64,000 nucleotides of DNA from Terriglobia bacterium (lineage in GTDB: Bacteria; Acidobacteriota; Terriglobia; Terriglobales; Acidobacteriaceae). The notes under the pieces were generated by a model. That model was not told the origin of the DNA. It did not search any database and saw only the letters and a program-made list of their open reading frames with translations. The translations under genes and the position numbers were made by a program. Positions 2,160 to 15,707 of this stretch are shown here, piece after piece. Position 1 is the first letter of the stretch; the number at the start of each line of letters is the position of its first letter. The stretch covers positions 62,001-126,000 of the forward strand of contig JAIQFA010000003.1 of the NCBI GenBank assembly GCA_020073525.1, given 5' to 3'.

Positions 2160-2558
2160 TCACGACGGCAGAGTCGTTCCCATCGCGGTTTTTGGCAGGG
2201 TCGCGCGAATTACTTCGAGCAACTCGGCGTTATCCGCCGGCTTTTGAAAAAACGCAGCCGCGCCGGCCTGCAGCGCACGCTGCTCGTTGCCTTGAGGGTC
2301 GCGGGCGGTTAACACGATCACCGGGATGCTGGAAAGCTTGTCGTCGCGTTGCAGCCGATCGAGTACGACAAAACCGTCTCCGGCGGGCAGGCCGAGATCG
2401 AGAATGATCAGATTCGGATGCTCCTTGTGAGCCAGTGCGATTGCCGAGTATCCATCGACCGCATTCACCGTATCGTAATGGTTCGCTCGCAGACGCAGTT
2501 TCAAGGCCTGTCTCAGGTCGGGGTCATCGTCAACGATCATGATTTTTGAATTCTCCAT
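2160..2558 (-). CDS. CheY-like single-domain response regulator
   Basis: This 132-residue protein is one receiver domain with no output domain. Acidic pocket D10-D12 (IVDDD), phospho-acceptor D54 (ILDLGLPAGDG), switch T84 (VLTARD) and K106 (FFQKP) are all present, so it should be phosphorylatable. A GGAGAAG Shine-Dalgarno lies just before the ATG. It starts 45 bases after the receiver-histidine kinase gene on the same strand, so it is likely the last gene of a four-gene phosphorelay set (5747 down to 2160) and may take phosphoryl groups from those kinases. Partner assignment is inferred from position only. It could equally act as the diffusible regulator of the divergent che cluster, which has no cheY of its own. 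Confidence 0.93.
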   Translation of the reverse strand: MENSKIMIVDDDPDLRQALKLRLRANHYDTVNAVDGYSAIALAHKEHPNLIILDLGLPAGDGFVVLDRLQRDDKLSSIPVIVLTARDPQGNEQRALQAGAAAFFQKPADNAELLEVIRATLPKTAMGTTLPS

Positions 2559-2603
2559 TGCACTTCTCCATTTCCGAGATTCACGCCGATAGTCGCGTGC
2601 GCC

Positions 2604-4187
2604 TCACTTCTTCTCTACAGAACTAGAATTCCGCTCCGTTGATAACTCCAGCCGAGCCATTTCGGTAACGCGGTCGGCAACTTCCCGCACCTGTTCTTCT
2701 AACTTTTGGCCCGCCGCCGGGTCGGGGAGAGCCACCGCCGAGGCTGAGACCTCGAGATCACCGCTGGCCTTCAAGTCAGGCAACTTCCCCAACTGCTCGC
2801 GAATCCGCGTCATCATGATTTCTGCCCGGGTGAGATCGGTGGAGGCAACCACGAAGAAGGTCTGCACCGGCCCCGGAGTTGTCATCGGAGGCAGGACCAG
2901 ATCCTTGTCAAGATAGACGCATCGTTGCAGGATTTCCAGGCAGCGCCGGCAAGTTTCTTTCCAGTTTCCGCGCGGAGACTTGGACCGCGACGTCAAGTTG
3001 ATCTTCACCAGGACGATGGCATCCCGCAGGGCGTCGTCTTTCACAATTACCGGGAACATCAGATTGGCCAGAGAATACAGAGGCAGAGTAAAGGAGAACG
3101 TGCTGCCGTGGCCCGGTTCGCTGGCGACCCATATCCGTCCTCCGTGGAGCGCCACCAGTTCCTTCGCGATATACAAGCCCAGTCCCAACCCCTTGCGGCT
3201 GTTGTCGATGGAATTCGGATCCTGATACATGCGTTCGAAGATCAGCGCTTTGGCCGCGGGGTCGATGCCACAACCGGTATCTGCCACCGAGACATAGACA
3301 AAGTCCGGGTCTGTCTGCGCCAGGCACGCTTGCACGGTGATGGCTCCGCCGGAAGGGGTGAACTTGATGCCGTTGTCGATGAGATTGATCAGTACTTCCA
3401 GAATGCGGTCGGGATCTCCGTGGACGAACGGGATCCGGGTATCCACGCCCACCTCCAGGCCGACGTGTTTTTTGCCCGCGACGGAGCGCGTCATGGAGAC
3501 GGCCAGCCGGATCAGATCGCCGATGGAGACACAGTGCGGTTCGATCCTTAACTTCTTGGCCTCGGCGCGGCTCGCTTCCAGCAGATCGCGCACCATGGCT
3601 CCTAGCTGGTTCACACTCTTCAGAATAGTTTCGAGGTGGTCGCGCTGCTCGGAGCTGATCTCCCCGGCTAGGCCATCGAGCAGGATGGTGGCAAATTGGT
3701 GAATGCAGGTCAGGGGCGTGCGCAGTTCATGCGAAACATGCGACAGGAACTGGTTCTTGAACTCCAGTTGCTGTTTGCGACTCATCTCCAAGGAATGGAG
3801 GAGCGCCTGCCGTTCGACGGCGTAACGCATGGCCCGATCCAAACTGCTGCTGGAGATGGAGCCTTTTACGAGATAGTCCTGCACGCCCTGATGCAGGGCC
3901 TTCATCGCCAGGGCTTCATCGTCCTGCCCCGACAGGATGACGATGGGTACGTCCGGCGCCTTCTCCAACACTTTGCGAAAGGTTTCCGCCCCCTGGCTAT
4001 CCGGCAGGTTCAGGTCCAGCAAGATGACTGCGGGCAGCTTTTCCTGGAGCGAGGCCAGTCCGTCAGACAAACGGTTGACGCAGCTCAAGTCGACTGTAGA
4101 CTTGCCTTCCACCAGCCGCAACCGAACCAGATCAGCGTCTCCGGGGTTATCTTCGATCAGTAACACGTGCGTCGATTGGCCGTTCAT
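2604..4187 (-). CDS. Receiver-histidine kinase with unusual C-terminal extension
   Basis: This is a 527-residue protein. Residues 1-125 are a receiver (IEDNPGDADL; phospho-acceptor D58 in LLDLNLPDSQG; K108 in YLVKGS). It is followed by HisKA with H153 in LSHVSHELRTPLT and a HATPase_c domain with N box LINLIDNGIKF, G1 DTGCGI and G2 GLGLGLYI. There is no membrane segment, so it is a cytoplasmic kinase. About 130 further residues follow the kinase core and resemble a degenerate GGDEF fold without the GG(D/E)EF signature. The start is MNGQSTH at 4187: its ATGA overlaps the stop of the upstream regulator by four bases and AAGGAGAAACG precedes it. A longer frame from 4226 is open but would overlap that gene more. 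Translational coupling to the Rcp1-type regulator suggests they work together. Confidence 0.92.
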   Translation of the reverse strand: MNGQSTHVLLIEDNPGDADLVRLRLVEGKSTVDLSCVNRLSDGLASLQEKLPAVILLDLNLPDSQGAETFRKVLEKAPDVPIVILSGQDDEALAMKALHQGVQDYLVKGSISSSSLDRAMRYAVERQALLHSLEMSRKQQLEFKNQFLSHVSHELRTPLTCIHQFATILLDGLAGEISSEQRDHLETILKSVNQLGAMVRDLLEASRAEAKKLRIEPHCVSIGDLIRLAVSMTRSVAGKKHVGLEVGVDTRIPFVHGDPDRILEVLINLIDNGIKFTPSGGAITVQACLAQTDPDFVYVSVADTGCGIDPAAKALIFERMYQDPNSIDNSRKGLGLGLYIAKELVALHGGRIWVASEPGHGSTFSFTLPLYSLANLMFPVIVKDDALRDAIVLVKINLTSRSKSPRGNWKETCRRCLEILQRCVYLDKDLVLPPMTTPGPVQTFFVVASTDLTRAEIMMTRIREQLGKLPDLKASGDLEVSASAVALPDPAAGQKLEEQVREVADRVTEMARLELSTERNSSSVEKK

Positions 4188-4624
4188 CGTTTCTCCTTCT
4201 GCGGCAGACTGGCGAAGCCCAGCCAAAAATCCGCCATCGATTGGACCACCGCCACGAAGTCCGGAAGATTCCCCGGCTTTCTGAGATAACAGTTCGCTCC
4301 CAGTTCGTAACTGCGGGCGATGTCAGAGTTCGCCTGGGACGAGGTGAAAATGACGACCGGAATCTTCGCCAGCGCAGGATCCGCCTTGATGTCAGCAAGC
4401 ACGTCGCGACCATCCTTGCGCGGCAGGTTCAGGTCGAGGACAACCAAGTCCGGAGATGGGGCCTCCACATATTTTCCCTGGCAACGTAAAAAGGAAATTG
4501 CTTCCGCGCCGTCGGTCACAGTATTGACGTGAAAGCGCCGTTTGCTCTTAGCCAGTACGTCGCGGGTCAGATCGATATCAGCGGGATTGTCGTCGACCAA
4601 TAAGACTTCAAAGGTGGTTTTCAT
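4184..4624 (-). CDS. Rcp1-type single-domain response regulator
   Basis: A 146-residue receiver of the Rcp1 subclass, the usual partners of phytochrome-type histidine kinases. It has VDDNPADIDLTRD at the N-terminus, phospho-acceptor D64 (VVLDLNLPRKDG), the FTSS switch around residue 94 and K116 in NCYLRKP. The real start is MKTTFEVLL at 4624, because the longer open frame to 4894 lies inside the upstream kinase gene. The chosen start overlaps that kinase by 17 bases and the stop overlaps the next gene as ATGA, so the three genes are probably one translationally coupled unit. Its kinase is likely the upstream SHDLQEPLR-type protein. Confidence 0.93.
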   Translation of the reverse strand: MKTTFEVLLVDDNPADIDLTRDVLAKSKRRFHVNTVTDGAEAISFLRCQGKYVEAPSPDLVVLDLNLPRKDGRDVLADIKADPALAKIPVVIFTSSQANSDIARSYELGANCYLRKPGNLPDFVAVVQSMADFWLGFASLPQKEKR

Positions 4625-5747
4625 CGGCGTCAGCGTGTTCCCCCTCCGGTTGCGTGGCAGGTAACGTGAATTTGAAGGTGGACCCGTGTCCAAGTTGGGA
4701 TTCCACCCAGATTTTGCCGCCTTGCTGCTCGATGATTTTCTTGCAGATCGCGAGACCAATCCCGCTGCCCGGGTATTCCTCGCGAGTATGCAAACGTTTG
4801 AAAATGACGAAGACAATCTCGGCATGCTCGGGAGCAATGCCAATGCCGTTGTCCGCCACCGAGAAAAGCCATTCCCTATCCTTCGCACTGGCACTCACGC
4901 GAATGACGGGCGGCTGCGAACCGCGAAACTTGATCGCGTTTCCGATCAGGTTCTGGAAAACCTGCAGCAATTGCGAGGCGTCCACAACCACATCGGGGAG
5001 ATGGTCGTGCGTGACTTGCGCCCCACTCTCCTCAATGGCGGCTTGCAGATTTTGCACTGCCGTCTCCATCACGGCGTTGCAGTCGGTGCTCTGTGGATTC
5101 GTGCCCTGGCGTCCGACCCGCGAAAAGGCCAGCAGGTCTTGCACCAGCGTTTGCATGCGCAGGGCGCCGTCGACTGCGTAGTGGATGTACTTGTCGGCGT
5201 CGCCGTCAAGCTTGCCGCGATAGCGTTCTGCCAAGAGCTGGCTATAGGTCGCAACCATGCGCAGGGGTTCCTGCAGGTCGTGGGAGGCTACGTAGGCAAA
5301 CTGCTCGAGGTCGCGGTTGGAACGGGCCAATTCTTCTTGCGCCCGCTTGTTCTCCTCGCGCAATTTTTTCTCCCGCATAGCTCGACGTACCGACTCGGGC
5401 AGGCGCGCCAAGCGGTCTTTCAGGACATAGTCGGCAGCACCTTGCTTGATGCATTCCACGGCGGTGAATTCGCCAAGTGAGCCCGAAACGACGATGACCG
5501 GAATATCCAGTTTTTCCTGGCGCACGACCTCGACCGATTCCACGCCATTCCAGGCCGGCAGTTTGTAATCCGCCAGAATCACGTCGTAGGAGTTCTTCCG
5601 CAGTAGATCGGTGAATTCCTGAGCCGTCTGGGCCACATCTCCGCGGGCGGCAAATCCTGACTGCCTCAGGGCGTGCAACATCAGTTCCGCGTCCGCGGGT
5701 TCGTCCTCCACCAAGAGCACGCGCAACCGGACACTAACTTTGTCCAC
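4608..5747 (-). CDS. Receiver-histidine kinase of phytochrome-like HisKA type
   Basis: A 379-residue cytoplasmic protein counted from GTG 5747. An N-terminal receiver (LLVEDEPADAELM, D60 in VILADYKLPAWNG) is followed by a coiled segment (KKLREENKRAQEELARSN). Then comes HisKA with H156 in YVASHDLQEPLRM, the version found in phytochrome-type kinases, and HATPase_c (NLIGNAIKFRG, DNGIGI, GSGIGLAI). The frame stays open to an ATG at 5990 (460 residues). However, those extra 81 residues translate a palindromic repeat (5779-5840) that occurs elsewhere between genes, so GTG 5747 with GAGG upstream is preferred. It is the first gene of the phosphorelay set that includes an Rcp1-type regulator. Confidence 0.88.
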   Translation of the reverse strand: MDKVSVRLRVLLVEDEPADAELMLHALRQSGFAARGDVAQTAQEFTDLLRKNSYDVILADYKLPAWNGVESVEVVRQEKLDIPVIVVSGSLGEFTAVECIKQGAADYVLKDRLARLPESVRRAMREKKLREENKRAQEELARSNRDLEQFAYVASHDLQEPLRMVATYSQLLAERYRGKLDGDADKYIHYAVDGALRMQTLVQDLLAFSRVGRQGTNPQSTDCNAVMETAVQNLQAAIEESGAQVTHDHLPDVVVDASQLLQVFQNLIGNAIKFRGSQPPVIRVSASAKDREWLFSVADNGIGIAPEHAEIVFVIFKRLHTREEYPGSGIGLAICKKIIEQQGGKIWVESQLGHGSTFKFTLPATQPEGEHADADENHL

Positions 5748-5778
5748 AGGCCTCGAGGAGGCATCTTTGGGTATATCT

Positions 5779-5840
5779 GTAGAGACGCGGCTTGCCGCGT
5801 CTCCTGCCGCAGAGCAAGACGGGGCAAGCCCCGTCTCTAC
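5779..5840. repeat. REP-like palindromic doublet with GTAG/CTAC ends
   Basis: Two adjacent hairpins: GAGACGCGGCTTGCCGCGTCTC-type, then GAGACGGGGCAAGCCCCGTCTC-type, each self-complementary. They are flanked by GTAG on the left and CTAC on the right, so the unit is an inverted pair of foot-plus-hairpin modules. The same design recurs at 57753-57820 and partly at 47767-47813. It lies in the gap between the kinase gene and cheA. Confidence 0.8.
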
Positions 5841-6307
5841 AGACAGAGACACTTGCGGGTCCGGAGCTTTTGCGTCTGTGGAAAGAGTGGCCGTTGCGGA
5901 CCTCCCATCGGACCGATATCGCGGGTTGCTCAGAAAGGGCTCTCGATATGGGGACGACACTGCGACCCGCGCGTCACCTACATTCGCCATCGGCTTGCGT
6001 CATTGGACCTTGAGTGGAAAACAGTCGCCTCGATTCCCAGACGACACAGTCATCCCTGATCCATCGCCACCGAGGGTGGCGTCTTTCGGCCCTGTCCTTC
6101 CGGGATAAGGGCTGGGAGAGCACATTCCTAAGGACCGACAGCCTTCGGCCTATTTGCCGACCAAGAATTAAGGACCAGCTCACTAATGAAAATGACTTGA
6201 ATCGACGATGGAAAGTTGGAGGGATTGAACTGACCAGGTTTCCACGAGACTCAGAATCCAGTCCCTCAAGGAAGACACCTTCAAGACGCATAAAGAGGAA
6301 GGCAGCG
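5841..6307. other. Divergent intergenic region upstream of cheA
   Basis: This stretch separates the minus-strand kinase set from cheA. It is open in the cheA frame from 6014, but the predicted residues there look like untranslated sequence and have no family resemblance. It presumably carries the promoters of both divergent units. No convincing -35/-10 pair or sigma54 site was recognised. Confidence 0.5.
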
Positions 6308-9085
6308 ATGAGCGACAGCGACATCGTTCAGGAATTTCTGGTCGAGAGTTACGAGAATCTGGACCGGCTGGACCGGGACCTGGTCGGCCTGGAGAAGAAC
6401 CCGGGCGATCGGGACGCGCTGGCGGGCGTGTTTCGGACCATTCACACCATCAAGGGCACTTGCGGATTCCTCGGCTTCAACAAACTGGAAAAGGTCGCGC
6501 ACGTGGGGGAAAACCTGCTGACGCGCCTGCGGGACGGCCAGCTTACACTCAATCCGGAAATCACGACTGCACTGCTGAGCATGGTGGATGCGGTCCGGCA
6601 GATGCTCGCAAAGATTCAATCGACGGGCCAGGATGGCGAAGTCGACTACCCGGAACTGCGGGAAACCCTGACGCGGCTGCAGCAAAGCGCTGCGGCGGCA
6701 ACTCCAGCCGAGCACGTAGCACCGCCGTCCAAGCCGGAGGAAGGGATTAAGACCACAAGTTCGGGAGACATGCCCGCGGAGAACATGGCCTCACCTCCCG
6801 CCCCTGTGTTGGAGAAACCCACAGCCGCGAAAGCACGCAAGAGCGCCAAGGCCCATACCGTCAAGCCAGTCGAGGCCGAACCCGTCCCGACTCAGCCAGC
6901 CTCGATTCAGGCGGCCCAAGTTCAGCCAGCCCCGGGAATCAGCAGTAGCCCGTCGCCGGAACCCGACTCCCGCCATCGGGAAGCGATGGCCGAGACCATC
7001 CGTGTCGGAGTCAATGTGCTGGACAAACTGATGACGCTGGTGGGTGAGCTGGTACTGGCACGCAACCAACTTCTGCAAATCTCGAACATGGTGGAAGACA
7101 CCGGTCTTCAGGCCGTCTCGCAACGGATGAATCTCATCGCCACCGAACTGCAAGAAGAAGTCATGAAGACCCGCATGCAGCCCATCGGCAACATCTGGAA
7201 CCAGTTTCCCCGGACGGTGCGCGATGTCGCTCTCGGTTGCGGGAAGGAAGTGGAAGTCGAGATGGAGGGCAAGGAGACAGAACTCGACAAAACCATCATC
7301 GAGGCGATCAAGGATCCACTCACCCATCTGGTGCGCAATTCCGTCGATCATGGCATCGAAGGTCCCGCCGACCGCGTGAAGGCGGGCAAGGATCGGACCG
7401 GACGCCTGATCCTGCGCGCGTTTCATGAGGGCGGGCAGGTCAACATCGAGATTACCGACGACGGCGCCGGTCTGAACGTAGAGCGCATCCGCAAGAAAGC
7501 GCTCGAACGCGCCGTGATCACGGCTGAACAGTCGGCACGCATGACCGAGCGGGAAATCTTCAATTTGATCTTCCTTCCTGGTTTCTCCACCGCAGAAAAG
7601 GTGACCAACGTGTCCGGCCGCGGTGTCGGTATGGATGTGGTGAAGACAAATGTCGAAAAAATTGGCGGCACCGTGGACGTGCAGTCCACCCTCGGCCGGG
7701 GCACGACGGTCCGGGTAAAGATTCCCTTGACCCTGGCCATCATCCCGGCGCTGGTGGTTACCTACGGCGGCGATCGCTACGCTATTCCCCAAGTCAGCTT
7801 GCTCGAACTGGTGCGCCTGGAGGCTGACGAGGTGGGCAAGGGCATCGAGTTGGTGCATGGCGCACCAGTCTACCGGCTCCGCGGGCGACTCCTGCCTCTC
7901 GTGTATCTGAGCCGGGAACTGAGCGCCACAGGTGTCCAAGGGCAGGGGGTGGGACATCAGTCCACAAATTCCGCTTCAAAATGGCAAATGCTTGACTTCT
8001 CCCAAGCCCGAGTCAAGCACCAGCATTGGTTGGCGCGGTTGCGAGAGGTGCTGGACGACAAAACCAGCATGACTGCGCAACAGGCTGGTTCTCATACCGA
8101 ATGCGCTCTGGGCAAGTGGCTTTATTCCATCGGCCTCAAGAACTACGGAAACCTCGCTGAGATTCACTTAGTCGAAACAACGCACACGGAGTTCCATGGG
8201 CTGGTGGCCAAGATTTTGAGTCTCAAAGACCAGGGCAATCAGGCCGAAGCGGAGCAAGCATTCCGGCAGTTGGGTCCGCTTTCCACCAAGATCATCGCGC
8301 TGCTGACGGAACTGGAAAAGAAGGTTCTCTACAACCTGAGCGTGAACATTGTGGTGCTGCAAGCCGATGATCGGCAATTCGGCTTGGTGGTGGACGAGAT
8401 CAACGACACCGAAGAAATCGTGGTGAAGCCGCTGCGGAAACAGCTCAAGACGGTGAAAACCTTTGCCGGTTCGAGCATCATGGGCGACGGCAAAGTCGCG
8501 CTCATCCTGGATGTGCTCGGTTTGGCGCAGCGGGCCAGCGTGGTCACGGAAACCAAGGACCGTGCGCTGACGGAAAAAACCACGGAAGCAACAGGAACGG
8601 CGATCGACAAACAAACCTTTCTGCTCTTCGCAGGCCCGGGCGATTCCCGCATGGCGATACCTCTCAGCACGCTGGCGCGGCTCGAGGAATTTCCGGCGGC
8701 GCAAGTGGAAATGTCCGGCAGCCAGTGGGTGACGCAGTATCGCGGCCAGATTCTGCCCTTGATTCGCCTCAATGTCGTGCTCGAGGAACGGCGCAACAAG
8801 CTGCGCGCGCTGCAAGGTCCGCCCGCAGCCGATGCAGGACCGATTCAGGTGCTGGTGCTGAACCACGAGGGGCGCTCCTTCGGCCTGGTCGTCGAACGGA
8901 TCCTGGACATCGTCGAAGACCGGGCGGACGTGAAATCGGCAGCCACCCGGGCCTGCGTTCTCTATTCCGTCGTGATCGGGGAGCGGGTCACGGAGTTGCT
9001 CGATATTCCGGCCATTCTGCGCAGCGCGGATGTGAGCGAGGCGCGGCCCAGCCTGGCGGCGAAAGCAGCGGAGGTTGCGAACTAG
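6308..9085 (+). CDS. cheA: Chemotaxis histidine kinase CheA with nested CZB zinc-binding domain
   Basis: A 925-residue kinase that passes phosphate to CheY/CheB in chemoreceptor arrays. Residues 1-110 are the Hpt domain with H46 (RTIHTIKGTCGFLG). About 100 residues of Pro/Ala-rich linker follow where a P2 domain would normally be. The dimerisation domain starts near residue 227, then HATPase_c (NSVDHGIEGP, DDGAGL, GRGVGMDVV) and two CheW-like regulatory domains. The first CheW-like domain is interrupted at about residues 559-675 by a CZB domain with candidate zinc ligands H571 (KHQHW), C599 (ECALGKWLY), H626 and H630 (HTEFH). The CheW fold resumes with FGLVVDEINDTEEIVVKPL. The start MSDSDIVQEF at 6308 has GAGGAAGG upstream; an open extension from 6014 is rejected. 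cheW follows after 3 bases. Confidence 0.95.
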   Translation: MSDSDIVQEFLVESYENLDRLDRDLVGLEKNPGDRDALAGVFRTIHTIKGTCGFLGFNKLEKVAHVGENLLTRLRDGQLTLNPEITTALLSMVDAVRQMLAKIQSTGQDGEVDYPELRETLTRLQQSAAAATPAEHVAPPSKPEEGIKTTSSGDMPAENMASPPAPVLEKPTAAKARKSAKAHTVKPVEAEPVPTQPASIQAAQVQPAPGISSSPSPEPDSRHREAMAETIRVGVNVLDKLMTLVGELVLARNQLLQISNMVEDTGLQAVSQRMNLIATELQEEVMKTRMQPIGNIWNQFPRTVRDVALGCGKEVEVEMEGKETELDKTIIEAIKDPLTHLVRNSVDHGIEGPADRVKAGKDRTGRLILRAFHEGGQVNIEITDDGAGLNVERIRKKALERAVITAEQSARMTEREIFNLIFLPGFSTAEKVTNVSGRGVGMDVVKTNVEKIGGTVDVQSTLGRGTTVRVKIPLTLAIIPALVVTYGGDRYAIPQVSLLELVRLEADEVGKGIELVHGAPVYRLRGRLLPLVYLSRELSATGVQGQGVGHQSTNSASKWQMLDFSQARVKHQHWLARLREVLDDKTSMTAQQAGSHTECALGKWLYSIGLKNYGNLAEIHLVETTHTEFHGLVAKILSLKDQGNQAEAEQAFRQLGPLSTKIIALLTELEKKVLYNLSVNIVVLQADDRQFGLVVDEINDTEEIVVKPLRKQLKTVKTFAGSSIMGDGKVALILDVLGLAQRASVVTETKDRALTEKTTEATGTAIDKQTFLLFAGPGDSRMAIPLSTLARLEEFPAAQVEMSGSQWVTQYRGQILPLIRLNVVLEERRNKLRALQGPPAADAGPIQVLVLNHEGRSFGLVVERILDIVEDRADVKSAATRACVLYSVVIGERVTELLDIPAILRSADVSEARPSLAAKAAEVAN

Positions 9086-9088
9086 ACC

Positions 9089-9547
9089 ATGGCCCACACT
9101 TCACAGTTTTGCACATTCTACTTGGACAAGTTGCTGTTCGGCGTGGAGTTGAAAGGCGTCCAGGAAGTTATCCGCTCGCTGGATATGACGAAGGTTCCGC
9201 TGGCGCCAGGAGTAGTGCGCGGCTTGATCAACCTGCGCGGCCAGATTGTCACGGCGGTCGATCTGCGGCGACGTCTGGAACTGGAACTCCGCCCGGAGGG
9301 CATGCTGGCCATGAATGTGGTGGTGCGCTCTCAGGATGGCGCGGTCAGCCTGCTGGTGGACGAAATTGGCGATGTGGTCGAAGTCGAGGAAGACAGCTTC
9401 GAGCCGCCGCCCGAAACCTTGCGCGGCTCCGTGCGGACCATGATCCTCGGCGTCCACAAACTAAATGACCGGCTGTTGCACGTGCTGGACATTGAAAAAG
9501 CGTGCCAGATGACGGATGTGGCTGAGGCTGCGGCCGTAGGGCGATAG
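9089..9547 (+). CDS. cheW: Chemotaxis coupling protein CheW
   Basis: A 152-residue CheW domain protein that links chemoreceptors to CheA. Features are an N-terminal strand FCTFYLDKLLFGVELKG, the RGLINLRGQIVTAVDLR core, and VVRSQDGAVSLLVDEIGDVVEV followed by VRTMILGVHKLNDRLLHVLD, all standard for the family. Length is normal. It begins three bases after the cheA stop, so it is almost certainly co-transcribed with it. A 222-base gap follows before the next gene, longer than elsewhere in the cluster, which could hold a secondary promoter. No such promoter was identified. Confidence 0.95.
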   Translation: MAHTSQFCTFYLDKLLFGVELKGVQEVIRSLDMTKVPLAPGVVRGLINLRGQIVTAVDLRRRLELELRPEGMLAMNVVVRSQDGAVSLLVDEIGDVVEVEEDSFEPPPETLRGSVRTMILGVHKLNDRLLHVLDIEKACQMTDVAEAAAVGR

Positions 9548-9769
9548 CGGCTGAGTGTACCGGCGTACAGAGTCCCATTTTTCACTTTCCAAAGCAATCC
9601 AGAGAATGGGTGGCCTGGGCTGACTGGTCTGTCCGCGTGCTCAGCGACTCCCGCTAAAGTCTGCGCTTTCCGTGCCGATGGAAAGGATGTTTGAGCGATT
9701 GCTGTTTTGTGAACTGCCCTGCAGCACATGAGGGCGTCCGACACAGCCGACGCGGAAGGCGACGCCACA

Positions 9770-10876
9770 ATGCGCCTCACATGCAGGATCACGATCGAGT
9801 TTCTCGTGCTCTGCTTTGGTTTGTCCACACCGTCAGCCGCATGGGCGGAAGATGCCGGGAATGACAACGCTTCATCGCCGGCGCTGGCAGCCGTCGGCCT
9901 CCTACTCAAGCATCTTCGGTTTCTGGGGGCCGAGAGTGTCGAGCGCTTCCGCTACATCGATAAAGCCAAAGGCAAGGTCACGGACCGTGACCTGCAATAC
10001 CGGCTCAGCACCCGAGTGCAGGTCAATCTGGTGGGCGACGGTACGACCTTCATCCAGGCGCGCGGCGAGTCCGGGCACAACTTAACGGGCAGCTTCGACT
10101 ACGCCGGCCTTGGACGAAACACGGCTTATTGGTCCTTCAATCTCAAATCGTTGTTCCTGGGACAGAAAATCGGGCACCATCTGGAAACTCAGGCCGGGAG
10201 CATTGAGTATGACTGGGGCGCGGGGACGGAAGCCACCTACGCCGACAATGACGCCTGGTTGGAGGGATACCGCTTGCGCTACGCCGGAGCCGGCCAGGGG
10301 GTTCTGCCCGATATAGTCAGTGCCACCATAGGCTACGTGGGCGACTTCCTGCAACCCAACGCGTTTGCCCGCCTGCATCGCATGGGCGAAGAGAACTACA
10401 TTCAGATTCTAGCCTCCAAGAAGCTCGGCGAGTATCGGGATTTCTCCGCCGAATTCGATTCCCTGCAGAGCATTCGCTACACCCGCGAAGCCCTGCGCTG
10501 GCGTAGGCTCCGCCTTTTCGTGGTTGATGAGTTCTCGGTCGAGGCGCTAACCCGCCTCTCCGACGATCGGACGTTTGGATGGTCCAGCAGCGTATTCAGG
10601 ACGCTCGACCGGAAAGGGCGTTTGCGCGCCAGCGTGTTTTACAGCGACATGCCCGCGAAGATCTTCCTGAAGGGCAAGACGCAGGTGCTGCAAAACGGCG
10701 ATTCGTACGCCTTGGGCAAACGGATCGGCCCGACTTTCCGTTGTACGCCATTCAAGGATTTCGAGGTGAGTTTGCTTGGCACGGACCGGTTGGATCGCAC
10801 GCCGGGCCCGCGCTACCGGGGCCAGGTGGCATTTCGCTATCAGTTTGCCAGCCTGCTGAATCGAGCGCTGCGCTGA
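9770..10876 (+). CDS. Putative secreted or outer-membrane beta-barrel protein of unknown function
   Basis: A 368-residue protein starting at ATG 9770 (an in-frame ATG at 9728 would precede a less convincing signal). A signal peptide is visible: positively charged MRLTCR, hydrophobic ITIEFLVLCFGL, and an A-W-A cleavage site before EDAG. The rest is rich in alternating polar and aromatic residues (YRLSTRVQVNL, AYWSFNLKSLFLGQK, QVAFRYQFASLL). It ends near an aromatic strand, the usual pattern of an outer-membrane barrel. I do not recognise a named family. It lies between cheW and mcp in the same direction, an unusual place for an envelope protein. It might be a ligand-access or surface partner of the chemosensory system, but only position supports that. 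Confidence 0.72.
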   Translation: MRLTCRITIEFLVLCFGLSTPSAAWAEDAGNDNASSPALAAVGLLLKHLRFLGAESVERFRYIDKAKGKVTDRDLQYRLSTRVQVNLVGDGTTFIQARGESGHNLTGSFDYAGLGRNTAYWSFNLKSLFLGQKIGHHLETQAGSIEYDWGAGTEATYADNDAWLEGYRLRYAGAGQGVLPDIVSATIGYVGDFLQPNAFARLHRMGEENYIQILASKKLGEYRDFSAEFDSLQSIRYTREALRWRRLRLFVVDEFSVEALTRLSDDRTFGWSSSVFRTLDRKGRLRASVFYSDMPAKIFLKGKTQVLQNGDSYALGKRIGPTFRCTPFKDFEVSLLGTDRLDRTPGPRYRGQVAFRYQFASLLNRALR

Positions 10877-10963
10877 GAAGCCCGACGCAAGACTGGGGGT
10901 CGCACGCGGCCTAAGAAGTATGGCCCACAAGTTCGATTTCACAAATTGTCGGAGGAAAAGGAA

Positions 10964-12625
10964 ATGAAACTCACACTTGGAAAGAAACTGGGACTGGGCT
11001 TTGGCGTGATTCTCGTGCTGATGGTGGTTAGCACCGTGATCAGCTACGTGAAGTTGGCCGACGTCAAGGAAAACCAGGACACCGTATTTGCCTTGCGTTT
11101 CCCCTCGGTCGAAACCGCTAGAAAATTGCAGAGGGACCTGAATCAGGTGGGGAACAAGGGCCGGCAGGCGATCCTCGCGGGAACGGAATCAGGCAAGAAA
11201 GAGGCCATGAAGAAGGTTTCGGACGACGCGTGGAGCGAGGTCGACAAAGATGTCGCCCGCATGGACGAACTGGCGCCCCAGTGGAATCTCCAGGAGAACC
11301 GTGACCGGCTAGCCGAGATCAAGAAGAGCATATCCGCCTTCCGGGACGTTCAGGAGGCAGTGATCGTCCGTGCATTCAGCGGCGAACGGGACGCGGTTTT
11401 GAAAGCCGGGGCTGAGTACGGGGAAAAAGCCACTCCGATCAACAACGGAATCAAGAAATCCCTGGAAGACATGGCTGGCTCCTTCGACAAACTTCTGCAG
11501 CAGAACCACCAAGAGCTGAGTGCGGCGACCAACTCGCTGACCTGGATCCTGATGCTGACCACGCTGGCGGCTTTGGGCGTGGGCATCTTCGTCGCCATTT
11601 TCCTGAGCCGCGCCATTGCGGGTGCGACCCAGTCAGTCCTGATCCAGGCGGAGGCCATCGCAGCGGGGGACTTGACCCGCGACGACCTGAAGGTCCGCAG
11701 CCAGGACGAACTGGGCGACCTGACCACGGCAATCAATAAGATGAGTGGCAGCCTGAAACGCATGATCATAGCCATCACGGAAAATGCGGTGCAGGTGGCA
11801 AGCGCGAGCGAGGAACTGTCCAGCACCAGCCAGCAGATCACGGCGAATTCCGAAGAGACTTCGGCGCAAGCGGACGTGGTTTCGAAGGCGGCACAGACGG
11901 TCAGCCAGAATCTTCAGACCGTGGCCACCGGCGCCGAAGAGATGGGCGCCAGCATCAAGGAAATCGCCAAGAACGCCACCGAAGCCGCCAAGGTCGCTAC
12001 CGGTGCGGTCAAAGTCGCCGAAAATACCACCGCCACCGTTTCCAAGCTGGGCGATTCTTCCACCGAGATTGGCCAGGTCATCAAGGTCATCACTTCGATT
12101 GCCCAGCAGACCAACCTCCTCGCCTTGAACGCCACCATTGAAGCGGCACGAGCCGGGGAAGCCGGCAAAGGCTTTGCCGTCGTAGCGAACGAAGTGAAAG
12201 AACTGGCCAAGGAAACGGCCAAAGCCACCGAAGATATCAGCCGTAAGATCGAAGCCATCCAGACCGACACCAAGGCGGCAGTCGACGCGATTGCGTCGAT
12301 CAGCGGCGTCATCAACCAGATCAACGATATTTCGGGCACCATCGCCACGGCAGTCGAAGAACAGAACGCGACCACCAACGAGATGTCGCGAAACGTGAGC
12401 GAAGCGGCGCACAGCAGCAGCGAAATTACCAGCAATATTGCGGGCGTGGCGCAGGCGGCGGAGTCGACGACGCACGGCGCCACCGATACTCAGAAGGCAT
12501 CGCAGCAACTGGTGGAGACGGCGACCCAGCTGCGCCACCTGGTCGAACAATTCAAGATCAACGCGGGCGAAAGCGCCGCGACCGGCGCTCAGGTCCACCG
12601 CATGGCTGCAGGGGCGGGGAAGTGA
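10964..12625 (+). CDS. Methyl-accepting chemotaxis protein
   Basis: A 553-residue chemoreceptor. It has TM1 at residues ~12-33 ([17 protein letters not shown]), a periplasmic four-helix-bundle sensor (residues ~35-190), TM2 ([20 protein letters not shown]), a HAMP domain, then the long cytoplasmic coiled coil with the hairpin tip [19 protein letters not shown]. The methylation helices are Glu/Gln/Ala-rich. No CheR-tethering pentapeptide (NWETF-like) is seen at the C-terminus, which ends in AAGAGK. The start is MKLTLGKK at 10964 with GGAGG nine bases upstream; the ORF extension MSEEKE is rejected. It is the only receptor in the cluster and presumably the input of the CZB-containing CheA. Confidence 0.95.
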
Positions 12626-12665: not shown

Positions 12666-12787
12666 ATAGTTCAGGCGGGTTCACATATGCCAATGTCAAC
12701 GGATGAAGAGCATCGTCAACGCCAATTGCGGTGTTCCGGTCGGCGGGCGGGCCGCCGCCATCACGAAACGGATCGATGCAGTTTGTT

Positions 12788-13900
12788 ATGACTCCCATTC
12801 GCATCCTCGTGGTGGACGATTCGGTCGTGATTCGCAAATTGCTTTCGGCCACGTTGTCAGGAGACCCTGCGTTCGAGGTAGTGGGTACGGCCAGCGACGG
12901 GCGCCTTGCCCTGGCCAAGATTCCAGTGCTCAAGCCGGATCTCGTCACCCTCGACGTCGAGATGCCGGTGATGGATGGATTAGAAACGCTGGCGGCGTTG
13001 CGCAAGTCGTATCCCCGCATGCCGGTGATCATGTTCAGCACGCTCACCGAGCACGGGGCGGCGGCGACTCTCGAGGCACTGGCGCTGGGAGCGTCGGACT
13101 ATGCCACCAAACCCAGCAATACCGGCAGTCCTGCGGTTGCGATCGAGCGCATTCGCGTGGAGCTCATCCCTAAGATCAAGGCACTGTGTGGCGCTGCTTC
13201 GTTGAAACTCGTGCCACTGGCCGGGTCACATCCGGCCATGAAAGTGCGATCGCCCTCGAACCCCCGCATCGAAGTGGTTGCGATCGGCACTTCGACGGGC
13301 GGTCCGAATGCCTTGGCGGAAGTCTTGCCGCAGATCCCTAACGACTTTCCCGTCCCCATCGTGGTAGTGCAGCATATGCCGCCGATTTTTACCCGGCTAT
13401 TGGCGGACCGGCTAGCCAAACAATCCGCCATTCTCATCGACGAGGGCCGTGCCGGCGCGATTCTCCGCGCCGGACAGGCCTGGATCGCCCCGGGAGACTT
13501 CCATATGAAGGTATTACGCGCGACCGGGGATTGCCGTCTGACTTTAAATCAGGGACCGCCAGAGAATTCCTGCCGGCCGGCGGTGGATGTTCTGTTTCGC
13601 TCGGTGGCACAGGCCTACGGCGCCAACGTTCTCGCCGTCGTTATGACCGGCATGGGGGCGGACGGCGTGCTGGGAGCGCAAGAGATTCGCAACGCCGGAG
13701 GGAATGTCATTGTGCAGGACGAAGCGTCCTCCGTTGTCTGGGGGATGCCGGGCCTGGTGCATGCCTCCGGACTGGCCGATGCCACCTACCCTCTCGATCG
13801 CCTGGCGACAGAGATCACGCGCCGGGTGCTGCAAAGCCGTAGCTCTCCAGCCGCCGCTGGAGTGAAGAGTTATTCGACGTTGGAGCATCGCGCTCAATGA
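12788..13900 (+). CDS. cheB: Chemotaxis protein-glutamate methylesterase CheB
   Basis: A 370-residue protein that removes methyl groups from (and deamidates) receptor glutamates. Residues 1-120 are a receiver domain (ILVVDDSVVIRKLL; phospho-acceptor D56 in TLDVEMPVMDG). The C-terminal esterase shows the catalytic triad motifs GTSTGGPNAL (Ser), VVVQHMPP (His) and VMTGMGADG (Asp). An in-frame ATG at 12776 (four residues longer) and a GTG at 12731 are alternative starts; none has a strong Shine-Dalgarno. Its stop overlaps the cheR start as ATGA, so CheB and CheR are translated together. Confidence 0.95.
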   Translation: MTPIRILVVDDSVVIRKLLSATLSGDPAFEVVGTASDGRLALAKIPVLKPDLVTLDVEMPVMDGLETLAALRKSYPRMPVIMFSTLTEHGAAATLEALALGASDYATKPSNTGSPAVAIERIRVELIPKIKALCGAASLKLVPLAGSHPAMKVRSPSNPRIEVVAIGTSTGGPNALAEVLPQIPNDFPVPIVVVQHMPPIFTRLLADRLAKQSAILIDEGRAGAILRAGQAWIAPGDFHMKVLRATGDCRLTLNQGPPENSCRPAVDVLFRSVAQAYGANVLAVVMTGMGADGVLGAQEIRNAGGNVIVQDEASSVVWGMPGLVHASGLADATYPLDRLATEITRRVLQSRSSPAAAGVKSYSTLEHRAQ

Positions 13901-14805
13901 CGACGGCCACCTCAACCGCTGCGGCGCGCCCGGCACAGACGAAGACCAACGAACCGCTCGATCTTGTTTACCGGCAAATCCGCGACTTGGTCTACAAGAC
14001 TTCGGGAATATATAAGGCGGAAGAGAAGCTTTACCTTCTAGCCGACGGCTGCGCACGGCGCATGAAGGCGCTGGGCGCGCACTCACCACGCGAGTATTGG
14101 GACCGTCTCTCGGTGGCGCCGGCCCGTGATGCGGAACTCCGGAACCTGCTGAATGAAATCACCATCGGCGAGACCTGTCTTTTCCGCAGCCAGCCGCAAC
14201 TCGACGCGCTGCGGAAAGTCATTCTTCCCGAACTGGTGGCGGAAAAAACCAAGCAGATCACCAAACGCGTGCGTATCTGGAGTGCCGGCTGCTCCACCGG
14301 GGAAGAGGCTTACACCCTGGCGATGAACATGCTCGAAGAGAGCGAACTCTTGCTGAAGGGCTGGACGGTGGAGATTCTGGCCACCGACCTGAACGACCGC
14401 TCCGTGGAAGCCGCGAAGGCGGGCATTTACGGCGACTATGCGCTGCGCTCCACTTCCGAGTATTTCAAGCGCAAATATTTCTCGCCGGTCGACGAAAAGA
14501 AGCTTCAGGTCCGCCCGGAAGTGAAAAAGTTGGTCACGGTCAGCCGTCTGAACCTGCAGGACGACTCCAAGATGCTTTTCATGAAGGGGATGGATCTGAT
14601 TTTCTGCTGCAATGTGCTGATCTATTTTGACGCCGCCTCCAAGGCCAAGGTGGTCAATCATTTTTTCAGCAATCTTAACTTTGGCGGCTATTTTTTTCTC
14701 GGGACCTCGGAATCGCTGATGAATTTGAATGACAAGTTTCACTTGATCCATTTTCCCGGAACCATCGGCTATTGGAAACCGTCCCTGAAAAGTGGAAAAC
14801 TATGA
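13897..14805 (+). CDS. cheR: Chemotaxis protein methyltransferase CheR
   Basis: A 302-residue SAM-dependent methyltransferase that methylates chemoreceptor glutamates. The N-terminal helical domain (residues ~25-95) precedes the Rossmann-like methyltransferase domain with RIWSAGCSTGEEAYTLA (SAM-binding), EILATDLNDRSVEAAKAG, and DLIFCCNVLIYFD. It ends with GYFFLGTSESL. The start overlaps the cheB stop by four bases (ATGA), and its own stop overlaps the next start the same way. There is no extra TPR domain. The receptor in the cluster has no CheR-docking pentapeptide, so methylation probably relies on direct binding. Confidence 0.96.
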   Translation: MTTATSTAAARPAQTKTNEPLDLVYRQIRDLVYKTSGIYKAEEKLYLLADGCARRMKALGAHSPREYWDRLSVAPARDAELRNLLNEITIGETCLFRSQPQLDALRKVILPELVAEKTKQITKRVRIWSAGCSTGEEAYTLAMNMLEESELLLKGWTVEILATDLNDRSVEAAKAGIYGDYALRSTSEYFKRKYFSPVDEKKLQVRPEVKKLVTVSRLNLQDDSKMLFMKGMDLIFCCNVLIYFDAASKAKVVNHFFSNLNFGGYFFLGTSESLMNLNDKFHLIHFPGTIGYWKPSLKSGKL

Positions 14806-15707
14806 CCCAATCCATCGCAACCACGATTCGCGAGCGCGTGCAGCAGATCGAAACCATGCCTGCCATCCCGGCTGTGTTTCAGCCCTTGCTGGAATTGCTG
14901 GGTAATTTGGACGAAGCAAAGGTGGACGAAGTGGCCCGCCTGGTGTCTTATGACAGCGCGATTGCCGCGCAATGTCTGCACATGGCCGCTTCTCCCTTGT
15001 TTGGCCTCTCACAACCTCCAAAATCGATCAAGGGAGCGGTCATCAGCCTGGGGTTGCGCCGAGTCGAAACGATCCTTCTCACTTGTTGTCTGGGACAGGC
15101 GTTTCCCGCTAAGAACTGGCCGATCGATCCCACCATATTCTGGAGGCATTCCCTAGGTTGCGCGTTAGTGTGCCAGAAATTCAGCGAGAAACTAGCCACT
15201 GCCGATCACGAAAAGGCGTACATGGCTGGCCTCCTGCACGACATTGGGTTCATGGTAAATTGCCTGGTTTTTTCCCAGGAATTCGCCACGGCAATGGCGA
15301 CCGCATTCCGCGAAGGAACTTCGCTCGATACTGCGGAACGAGCAACCATGGGATTCACGCACTGCGACGCCGGACAGGCCCTGGCGGAAAAATGGAACCT
15401 GGCCGACGACATCACCGAGGTGATCTCCCATCATCATACGGTCGAGCAAAGCCAGAAATCGCAGGCACTAGTGGCCCTGGTGCATCTGGGCGATCTTCTC
15501 TGCCGTATGCGCGATCTGGGGTATGGCTACTACGAGCGCCACAAGGTGGACTTAATCTCCGATCCTGCATGGGCCATTTTGTCGCGCGAGTATCGCAATC
15601 TGGAAACCGTGGACCTGGTGCGGTTCACCTTTGAACTGGATGAAGCGGTCGAGGAAATCCACGCCCTGGTAGCAGCGGTCTTCGGGTCAACGCCGGCACA
15701 CAGCTAA
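14802..15707 (+). CDS. HDOD domain signalling protein
   Basis: A 301-residue protein with an HDOD domain, the catalytically inert relative of HD phosphohydrolases. It has MPAIPAVFQPLLELLG at the start, SLGLRRVETILLTC in the middle, AYMAGLLHDIGFM (the HD-like pair retained as HD in LLHDIG), and ISHHHTVEQS towards the end. HDOD proteins are frequent at the end of chemosensory and c-di-GMP operons. The start ATG 14802 overlaps the cheR stop (ATGA); a TTG start at 14772 is also open. It is probably the last gene of the cheA-W-mcp-B-R unit; its biochemical role cannot be read from sequence. Confidence 0.92.
   Translation: MTQSIATTIRERVQQIETMPAIPAVFQPLLELLGNLDEAKVDEVARLVSYDSAIAAQCLHMAASPLFGLSQPPKSIKGAVISLGLRRVETILLTCCLGQAFPAKNWPIDPTIFWRHSLGCALVCQKFSEKLATADHEKAYMAGLLHDIGFMVNCLVFSQEFATAMATAFREGTSLDTAERATMGFTHCDAGQALAEKWNLADDITEVISHHHTVEQSQKSQALVALVHLGDLLCRMRDLGYGYYERHKVDLISDPAWAILSREYRNLETVDLVRFTFELDEAVEEIHALVAAVFGSTPAHS

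Follow-up and report, generated by a model that had tools for sequence, protein, structure and literature searches.

A CheA histidine kinase with a CZB-type zinc-binding domain nested in its P5 domain in an acidobacterium

CZB Proteins and CheA in Described Systems

The CZB family is described as having an ordered, zinc-bound state and a disordered, zinc-free one, with a cysteine that is oxidized by HOCl (available parts of PMC12871147 and PMC8262984). Among its members are the TlpD-like soluble chemoreceptors, which have a 3His-1Cys site in a C-terminal CZB and send their output to CheA. In TlpD, the zinc-bound form is thought to be kinase-on, and the sensor is placed on the receptor, more than 140 Å from the kinase interface (PMC12871147, same parts). 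The DgcZ protein of E. coli has the nearest solved CZB (Protein Data Bank entry 3t9o), and this domain controls an enzyme in cis, as proposed below for CheA. Of the CZBs studied, that of DgcZ works as a dimer and that of TlpD sits astride a coiled coil, according to the same portions of PMC12871147. A survey of 10,140 CZB sequences recognizes seven subgroups, among which the CheW-CZB proteins make up 1.4% and are most abundant in Clostridia; the available text of this survey has neither a CheA group nor a statement that the CZB of CheW-CZB proteins is nested (PMC8262984).

CheA kinases have been surveyed too. An analysis of 13,673 CheA sequences presents CheA as a protein that has no sensor domain and relies on receptors, and its main text contains no occurrence of CZB or zinc (PMC10782961). 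Another study sets aside 75 Pfam architectures as CheAs, as far as its accessible text tells, and a CheA with a CZB may sit unnamed among them (PMC10653840). The titles and abstract openings that the literature searches brought up describe no CZB in CheA, and a search of the literature on acidobacterial chemotaxis found nothing on the subject. Hence, CheA and CZB are both known kinds of proteins, and it is their combination that is not described in the literature searched.

The window analyzed here (64,000 nucleotides of a Terriglobia genome) codes for such a combination. The protein has no Pfam match to MCPsignal, which sets it apart from the TlpD-like class, and its sensor-type domain lies in the kinase and not on a receptor. 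It differs from DgcZ, where the CZB is N-terminal on a diguanylate cyclase, in that its CZB is nested in P5. It has in common with some CheW-CZB proteins (L166 and L171, see following) the site of the CZB in the CheW fold, but these are stand-alone adaptors, whereas the window protein is a kinase.

Architecture of the Window CheA and Its Surroundings

The cheA gene (6308–9085, + strand) codes for 925 amino acids within an open frame spanning 6014–9085, and its product consists of P1 (Hpt), a linker, P3, P4, a P5 split by the CZB, and a second CheW domain (Table 1). The start is placed at 6308 because orthologues have the same MSD/MGD residues there and AGAGGAAGG lies just upstream; the ATG itself is common to cheA orthologues. 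The original prediction was correct on the frame, which is uninterrupted, and on its coordinates. The core domains P1, P3, P4, and P5/CheW are all in one chain, the best solved relatives are CheA chains, and CheW is matched by Pfam in three stretches, the best being 678–742. Judged by its predicted domains and the P1 histidine, the protein is a CheA histidine kinase.

Table 1. Features of the window cheA and of the genes that follow it (residues refer to the 925-residue product)
Feature	Coordinates	Strand	Basis
P1/Hpt domain, residues 5–98	6320..6601	+	Pfam PF01627, 61.5 bits; aligned to E. coli CheA P1
Probable phospho-accepting residue His46, in HTIKG of P1			Alignment to E. coli CheA P1 motif
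P3 dimerization domain (H-kinase_dim), residues 229–288	6992..7171	+	PF02895, 52.1 bits
P4 ATPase domain (HATPase_c), residues 336–475	7313..7732	+	PF02518, 64.4 bits
P5 (first CheW domain), first half, residues 478–540	7739..7927	+	Alignments; beta strands in model
Variable linker, residues 541–560	7928..7987	+	pLDDT <50 at 545–560; 5–67% identity to relatives
CZB module in P5, residues 561–673	7988..8326	+	Pfam, alignments, model, Foldseek
Pfam core of CZB, residues 571–637	8018..8218	+	PF13682
Predicted zinc ligand His571	8018..8020	+	36/36 aligned CZBs; 9/9 CheA-CZBs
Predicted zinc ligand Cys599	8102..8104	+	36/36 aligned CZBs; 9/9 CheA-CZBs
Predicted zinc ligand His626	8183..8185	+	36/36 aligned CZBs; 9/9 CheA-CZBs
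Predicted zinc ligand His630	8195..8197	+	36/36 aligned CZBs; 9/9 CheA-CZBs
P5, second half, residues 678–753	8339..8566	+	CheW profile 68–136 (of 138) at 678–742; alignments; model
Second CheW domain, about residues 770–910	8615..9037	+	Pfam CheW stretch and alignment; limits approximate
cheW	9089..9547	+	PF01584, 98.7 bits
Chemoreceptor (4HB_MCP_1, HAMP, MCPsignal)	10946..12625	+	Pfam
cheB	12731..13900	+	Pfam
cheR	13897..14805	+	Pfam
HDOD-domain gene, end of shared cluster	14772..15707	+	Pfam; cluster comparison

The original prediction had located a CZB at residues ~559–675, inside the first CheW-like domain, with H571, C599, H626, and H630 as its ligands, and all of this agrees with what is found. 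The Pfam match to PF13682 (38.6 bits, E = 1.4e-9) exceeds the cut-off of 29.4, and it is the sole CZB match in this draft genome. It is the core of a complete module of ~113 residues standing between two conserved P5 halves. The four residues fall in the ligand columns of the DgcZ CZB 3t9o (profile E = 5.5e-5). They are invariant in an alignment of eight CheA-CZBs with 28 receptor, CZB-only, and other CZBs, a count that for the cysteine is partly the effect of selection, most rows coming from a scan that used the Cys motif and the domain start as patterns. The complete pattern H-x2-W, C-x-LG-K/Q-W, H-x3-H is present in all nine CheA-CZBs. We take Cys599 to be the oxidizable position of known CZBs. 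The NCBIfam diguanylate cyclase model PRK09894 touches residues 560–674 weakly (22.2 bits, for a cut-off of 256).

Structure prediction gives a concordant picture, for a single chain modeled free of zinc and partners. A first model, made with few P5 rows, resolves the CZB alone (pLDDT 83–96 for the block, <60 for P5), and Foldseek finds no match to it at E ≤ 0.001, the best being 3t9o_B (E = 0.017). A second model (residues 473–753), supplied with the two P5 halves of seven other CheAs as additional rows, has a mean pLDDT of 86.4, a pTM of 0.71, and a pLDDT of 87–97 in the CZB block. In it, P5 strands reach residue 533 and are followed by a short helix that ends at 540; residues 545–560 are disordered, helices occupy 564–676, and P5 strands start again from 679. 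Foldseek matches this model to the P5 of CheA (2ch4, 4jpb, and 1b3q, E from 2.6e-10 to 8.3e-10; 6s1k was matched too) and to the DgcZ CZB 3t9o_B (E = 7.2e-3, probability 1.00, TM 0.69 by target length). The insert is thus predicted to adopt the helix-bundle fold of the DgcZ CZB between the strands of P5. The DosC MID domain and the DgcZ CZB match the second model equally well, so that the fold by itself does not single out a CZB; specificity comes from the Pfam match and the ligands. Chance similarity to CZB is ruled out by the Pfam cut-off, the ligands, and the fold taken together.

Downstream of cheA, a frame of 382 codons between cheW and the chemoreceptor gene (9728–10876) has no Pfam match and no match in the relatives compared. 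Upstream, the products of a divergent block (2160–5990, − strand) include a receiver-histidine kinase and further receiver domains. The genome codes for FliG along with two MCPs and two CheAs; the other CheA adjoins the other MCP and frames that by eye resemble CheW, CheB, CheY, and CheX. With two MCPs and two CheAs, an added kinase input would be a sizeable part of the repertoire. The related cheA of G376, a relative, is close to two frames resembling MotA and MotB by eye, which suggests a flagellar output.

Distribution, Origin, and Loss of Nested CZBs

CheAs with a nested CZB are rare. PF13682 is matched in 8 of 100 genomes of the family and 23 of 200 of the order (own genome included in both), and among the 27 CZB loci from these searches a CheA match is found only in the window gene (L001) and in L024 (genome G221). 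End-to-end P5-CZB matches occur in 3 of 399 genomes of the class (G000, G277, and G361) and in 1 of 396 of the phylum (G000). A scan for the insert in 84,980 species genomes gave 113 confirmed places; among the 80 listed, at least seven are CheAs with a CZB at the same site (L073, L074, L075, L076, L081, L083, and L089), of which L076, L083, and L089 are taken to be the same carriers as G277, G361, and G221 and are counted once. Within the class of G875 (titled Planctomycetota), a search covering 397 genomes found the G875 locus L081 again, along with a second carrier, G1520, whose CheA (L195) is 47% identical to the window CheA over 939 columns. The count of homologues thus stands at no fewer than nine genomes, this one included: seven acidobacterial ones and two from the class of the planctomycete MAG. 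In seven relatives, the insert is 41–81% identical to that of the window and the frames are intact. Among the eight carriers scanned, all drafts, five gave no CZB match besides the CheA insert. The planctomycete CheA (L081, 3829–7059) has two Hpt domains besides the nested CZB.

The CheW-CZB proteins use the same loop in at least part of the cases. PF13682 is matched in 45 of the 391 genomes searched in the class of the Oscillospiraceae MAG G876; 30 loci were fetched from these, and for 15 loci a motif script could resolve which frame has the CZB. Five of these frames are short, with 271–329 residues (L166, L171, L172, L173, and L189). All five have a first CheW half followed by the CZB, and this first half is the only part of CheW found by Pfam. 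With a CheW profile built from 20 CheW proteins, the tail after the CZB resumes the profile at 65–139 in L171 (E = 4.2e-5) and at 66–136 in L166 (E = 0.006), and it matches weakly in the other three (E from 0.11 to 0.77); hhalign of all five tails gives a probability of 27%. For comparison, the second half of P5 starts at positions 61–66 of the profile in the window CheA and in seven of the eight other CheA-CZBs, the exception being L081, where the match starts earlier. By these alignments, at least two of the five clostridial proteins have their CZB in the loop that is interrupted in CheA. Hence, the window CheA is not alone in having a CZB nested in a CheW fold: the placement within a kinase that was originally predicted stands, and the use of this loop by clostridial adaptors had escaped that prediction.

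The two kinds of nested CZBs probably result from separate insertions, to judge from the phylogeny. The clostridial CheW CZBs form a branch separate from the CheA inserts (support 99/98, with two CheW rows flagged as long branches), which favors this scenario, and a joint clade of CheA and CheW inserts is 13.5 log units worse and not rejected (p-AU 0.197). Among the matches listed, the nearest relatives of the insert outside CheA are the C-terminal CZBs of gammaproteobacterial receptors (38–45% identity), along with one acidobacterial CZB-only protein (44%). The trees described below put it among these, with some uncertainty. The receptor identity of two such loci, L077 and L090, is confirmed. 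L077 ends two residues past the stretch equivalent to the insert, which gives the insert the look of an entire C-terminal module. In nine gammaproteobacterial loci (L077, L078, L080, L082, L085, L086, L087, L088, and L093), the gene with the C-terminal CZB is next to a CheW-like frame that either comes directly after its end or overlaps it.

The CheA inserts themselves do not always group together. In trees of 100 and 35 rows, the eight then known do not form one branch, and CZB-only proteins (L098, L100, and L104, from Magnetospirillum-like bacteria and Nitrospirota, plus L103 in the larger tree) fall among them on long branches. In the 35-row tree, L083 and L081 lie outside, and a single clade of CheA inserts is not rejected (p-AU 0.155). 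A third tree, from which these four CZB-only rows were left out and to which CheW and receptor rows were added, places the seven acidobacterial inserts on one branch (98/95) and pairs the planctomycete L081 with the CZB of the gammaproteobacterial receptor L090 (97/85). L195 is in none of these trees.

The insert is dispensable, since near relatives lack it (G028, G376, and G328). The orthologue of G028, from the same genus, is 72% identical to the window CheA up to residue 538 and 81% from residue 678, and has 11 residues in place of 139; its gene cluster has the same order, cheA-cheW-MCP-cheB-cheR-HDOD, with one more receptor-like frame. A quick tree of 43 CheAs, built without the insert columns, cannot separate gain from loss. 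On it, G361, which has the insert, is the sister of G376, which lacks it (SH-aLRT 99), and the presence of the insert needs five changes, for a mean of 7.5 after shuffling and with as few in 7 of 500 shuffles. Losses are suggested by G376, which has a long linker at the insertion site, and by G328, whose CheA (L072, 9612–11753) lacks the CZB and keeps there a short stretch resembling CZB helix 1. Exchange of gene pieces among cheA genes is also possible. Relative to L073, synonymous differences drop at 7988–9037 (pS 0.22–0.37 from the CZB on, 0.39–0.57 in the folded domains before it), and relative to L075 they are lowest in the second CheW domain (pS 0.31 at 8615–9037, 0.59–0.72 in the other domains); these drops in the C-terminal part of cheA look as if gene pieces were exchanged. 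Where the insert is kept, it is under purifying selection, weaker than that on the core, as estimated from its dN/dS of 0.38 relative to L073 and 0.14 relative to L075 (dS near saturation), for 0.08 and 0.13 in P3–P4, with dS values that rest on few codons.

A Possible Sensor within the Kinase

The architecture is well supported, and from it we infer that the CZB would sense zinc and act on the kinase, with the zinc-bound state being either kinase-on or kinase-off. The reading we favor, with some confidence, is that this CheA is a kinase with a cytoplasmic zinc or redox sensor in its receptor-coupling domain. It is suggested by the retention of the ligands in all nine CheA-CZBs, by purifying selection, and by the short joint between helix and strand in the model: hardly any residues separate the last predicted helix of the CZB (to 676) from the P5 strand that follows (from 679), the opposite end of the domain being on a predicted flexible linker. 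The helix bundle would be ordered in the zinc-bound protein and would loosen when zinc is lost or Cys599 oxidized, and the loosening would pass through the joint to P5, altering its coupling to CheW and receptors and thereby the output of the kinase. Such an internal input to the array would bypass the chemoreceptors. The original prediction had proposed control by zinc or hypochlorite at CheA itself. Control by zinc or oxidants at the kinase is indeed the best-supported reading, but hypochlorite is unlikely as an everyday signal if these bacteria live in soil and groundwater, as the record titles of relatives suggest; a better fit would be zinc status or an oxidant of another kind. Against the sensor reading count the absence of the insert from near relatives, its selection being weaker than that of the core, and its place inside P5, unlike the studied CZBs, which work as dimers or on a coiled coil.

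The domain could instead be a structural module that joins neighboring P5 domains or tunes the geometry of the array, with zinc in a structural role and no signaling. The packing of two DgcZ CZBs as a dimer interface (available part of PMC12871147) offers a precedent, the description of CheA as devoid of a sensor domain (PMC10782961, text as above) agrees with it, and the patchy presence of the insert is compatible with a non-essential scaffold. This is rather unlikely, given that the cysteine and all three histidines are kept as in sensory CZBs, and that the insert is nearest to receptor CZBs and CZB-only proteins. A domain absent from the CheA of G028, a member of the same genus, and changing state five times on the CheA tree, with an apparent remnant of helix 1 in G328 and a long linker in G376, might simply be a passenger tolerated in a permissive loop, folding alone, having little function, and being lost. 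One would then hardly expect four ligands to be kept in nine of nine proteins, frames to stay intact as the insert diverges to 41–81% identity, and dN/dS to remain below 1, which makes this quite improbable. Finally, this genome is a draft of 210 contigs with 5.65% contamination and the other carriers are likewise draft or metagenome assemblies, but that an assembly chimaera or misannotation put the CZB within the kinase has a negligible probability, as the frame is single and uninterrupted, the gene order is shared with relatives, and the same nesting with identical junctions in nine genomes rules out an assembly artefact.

If the sensor reading holds, a conserved sensor-type domain in P5 would add another entry point for signals, located where kinase, adaptor, and receptor meet. 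The effect of a change in P5 on kinase output could then be tested with a small defined ligand, zinc, instead of a receptor, and the same-genus orthologue without the insert provides a natural control. More tentatively, sensory domains may find a natural place to dock in the loop between the halves of the CheW fold, a loop that CZBs would have entered independently in clostridial CheW and in acidobacterial (perhaps separately planctomycetal) CheA. If so, core proteins of the array would become sensors in their own right, with no need of a chemoreceptor, contrary to the textbook view of a CheA that lacks an input domain.
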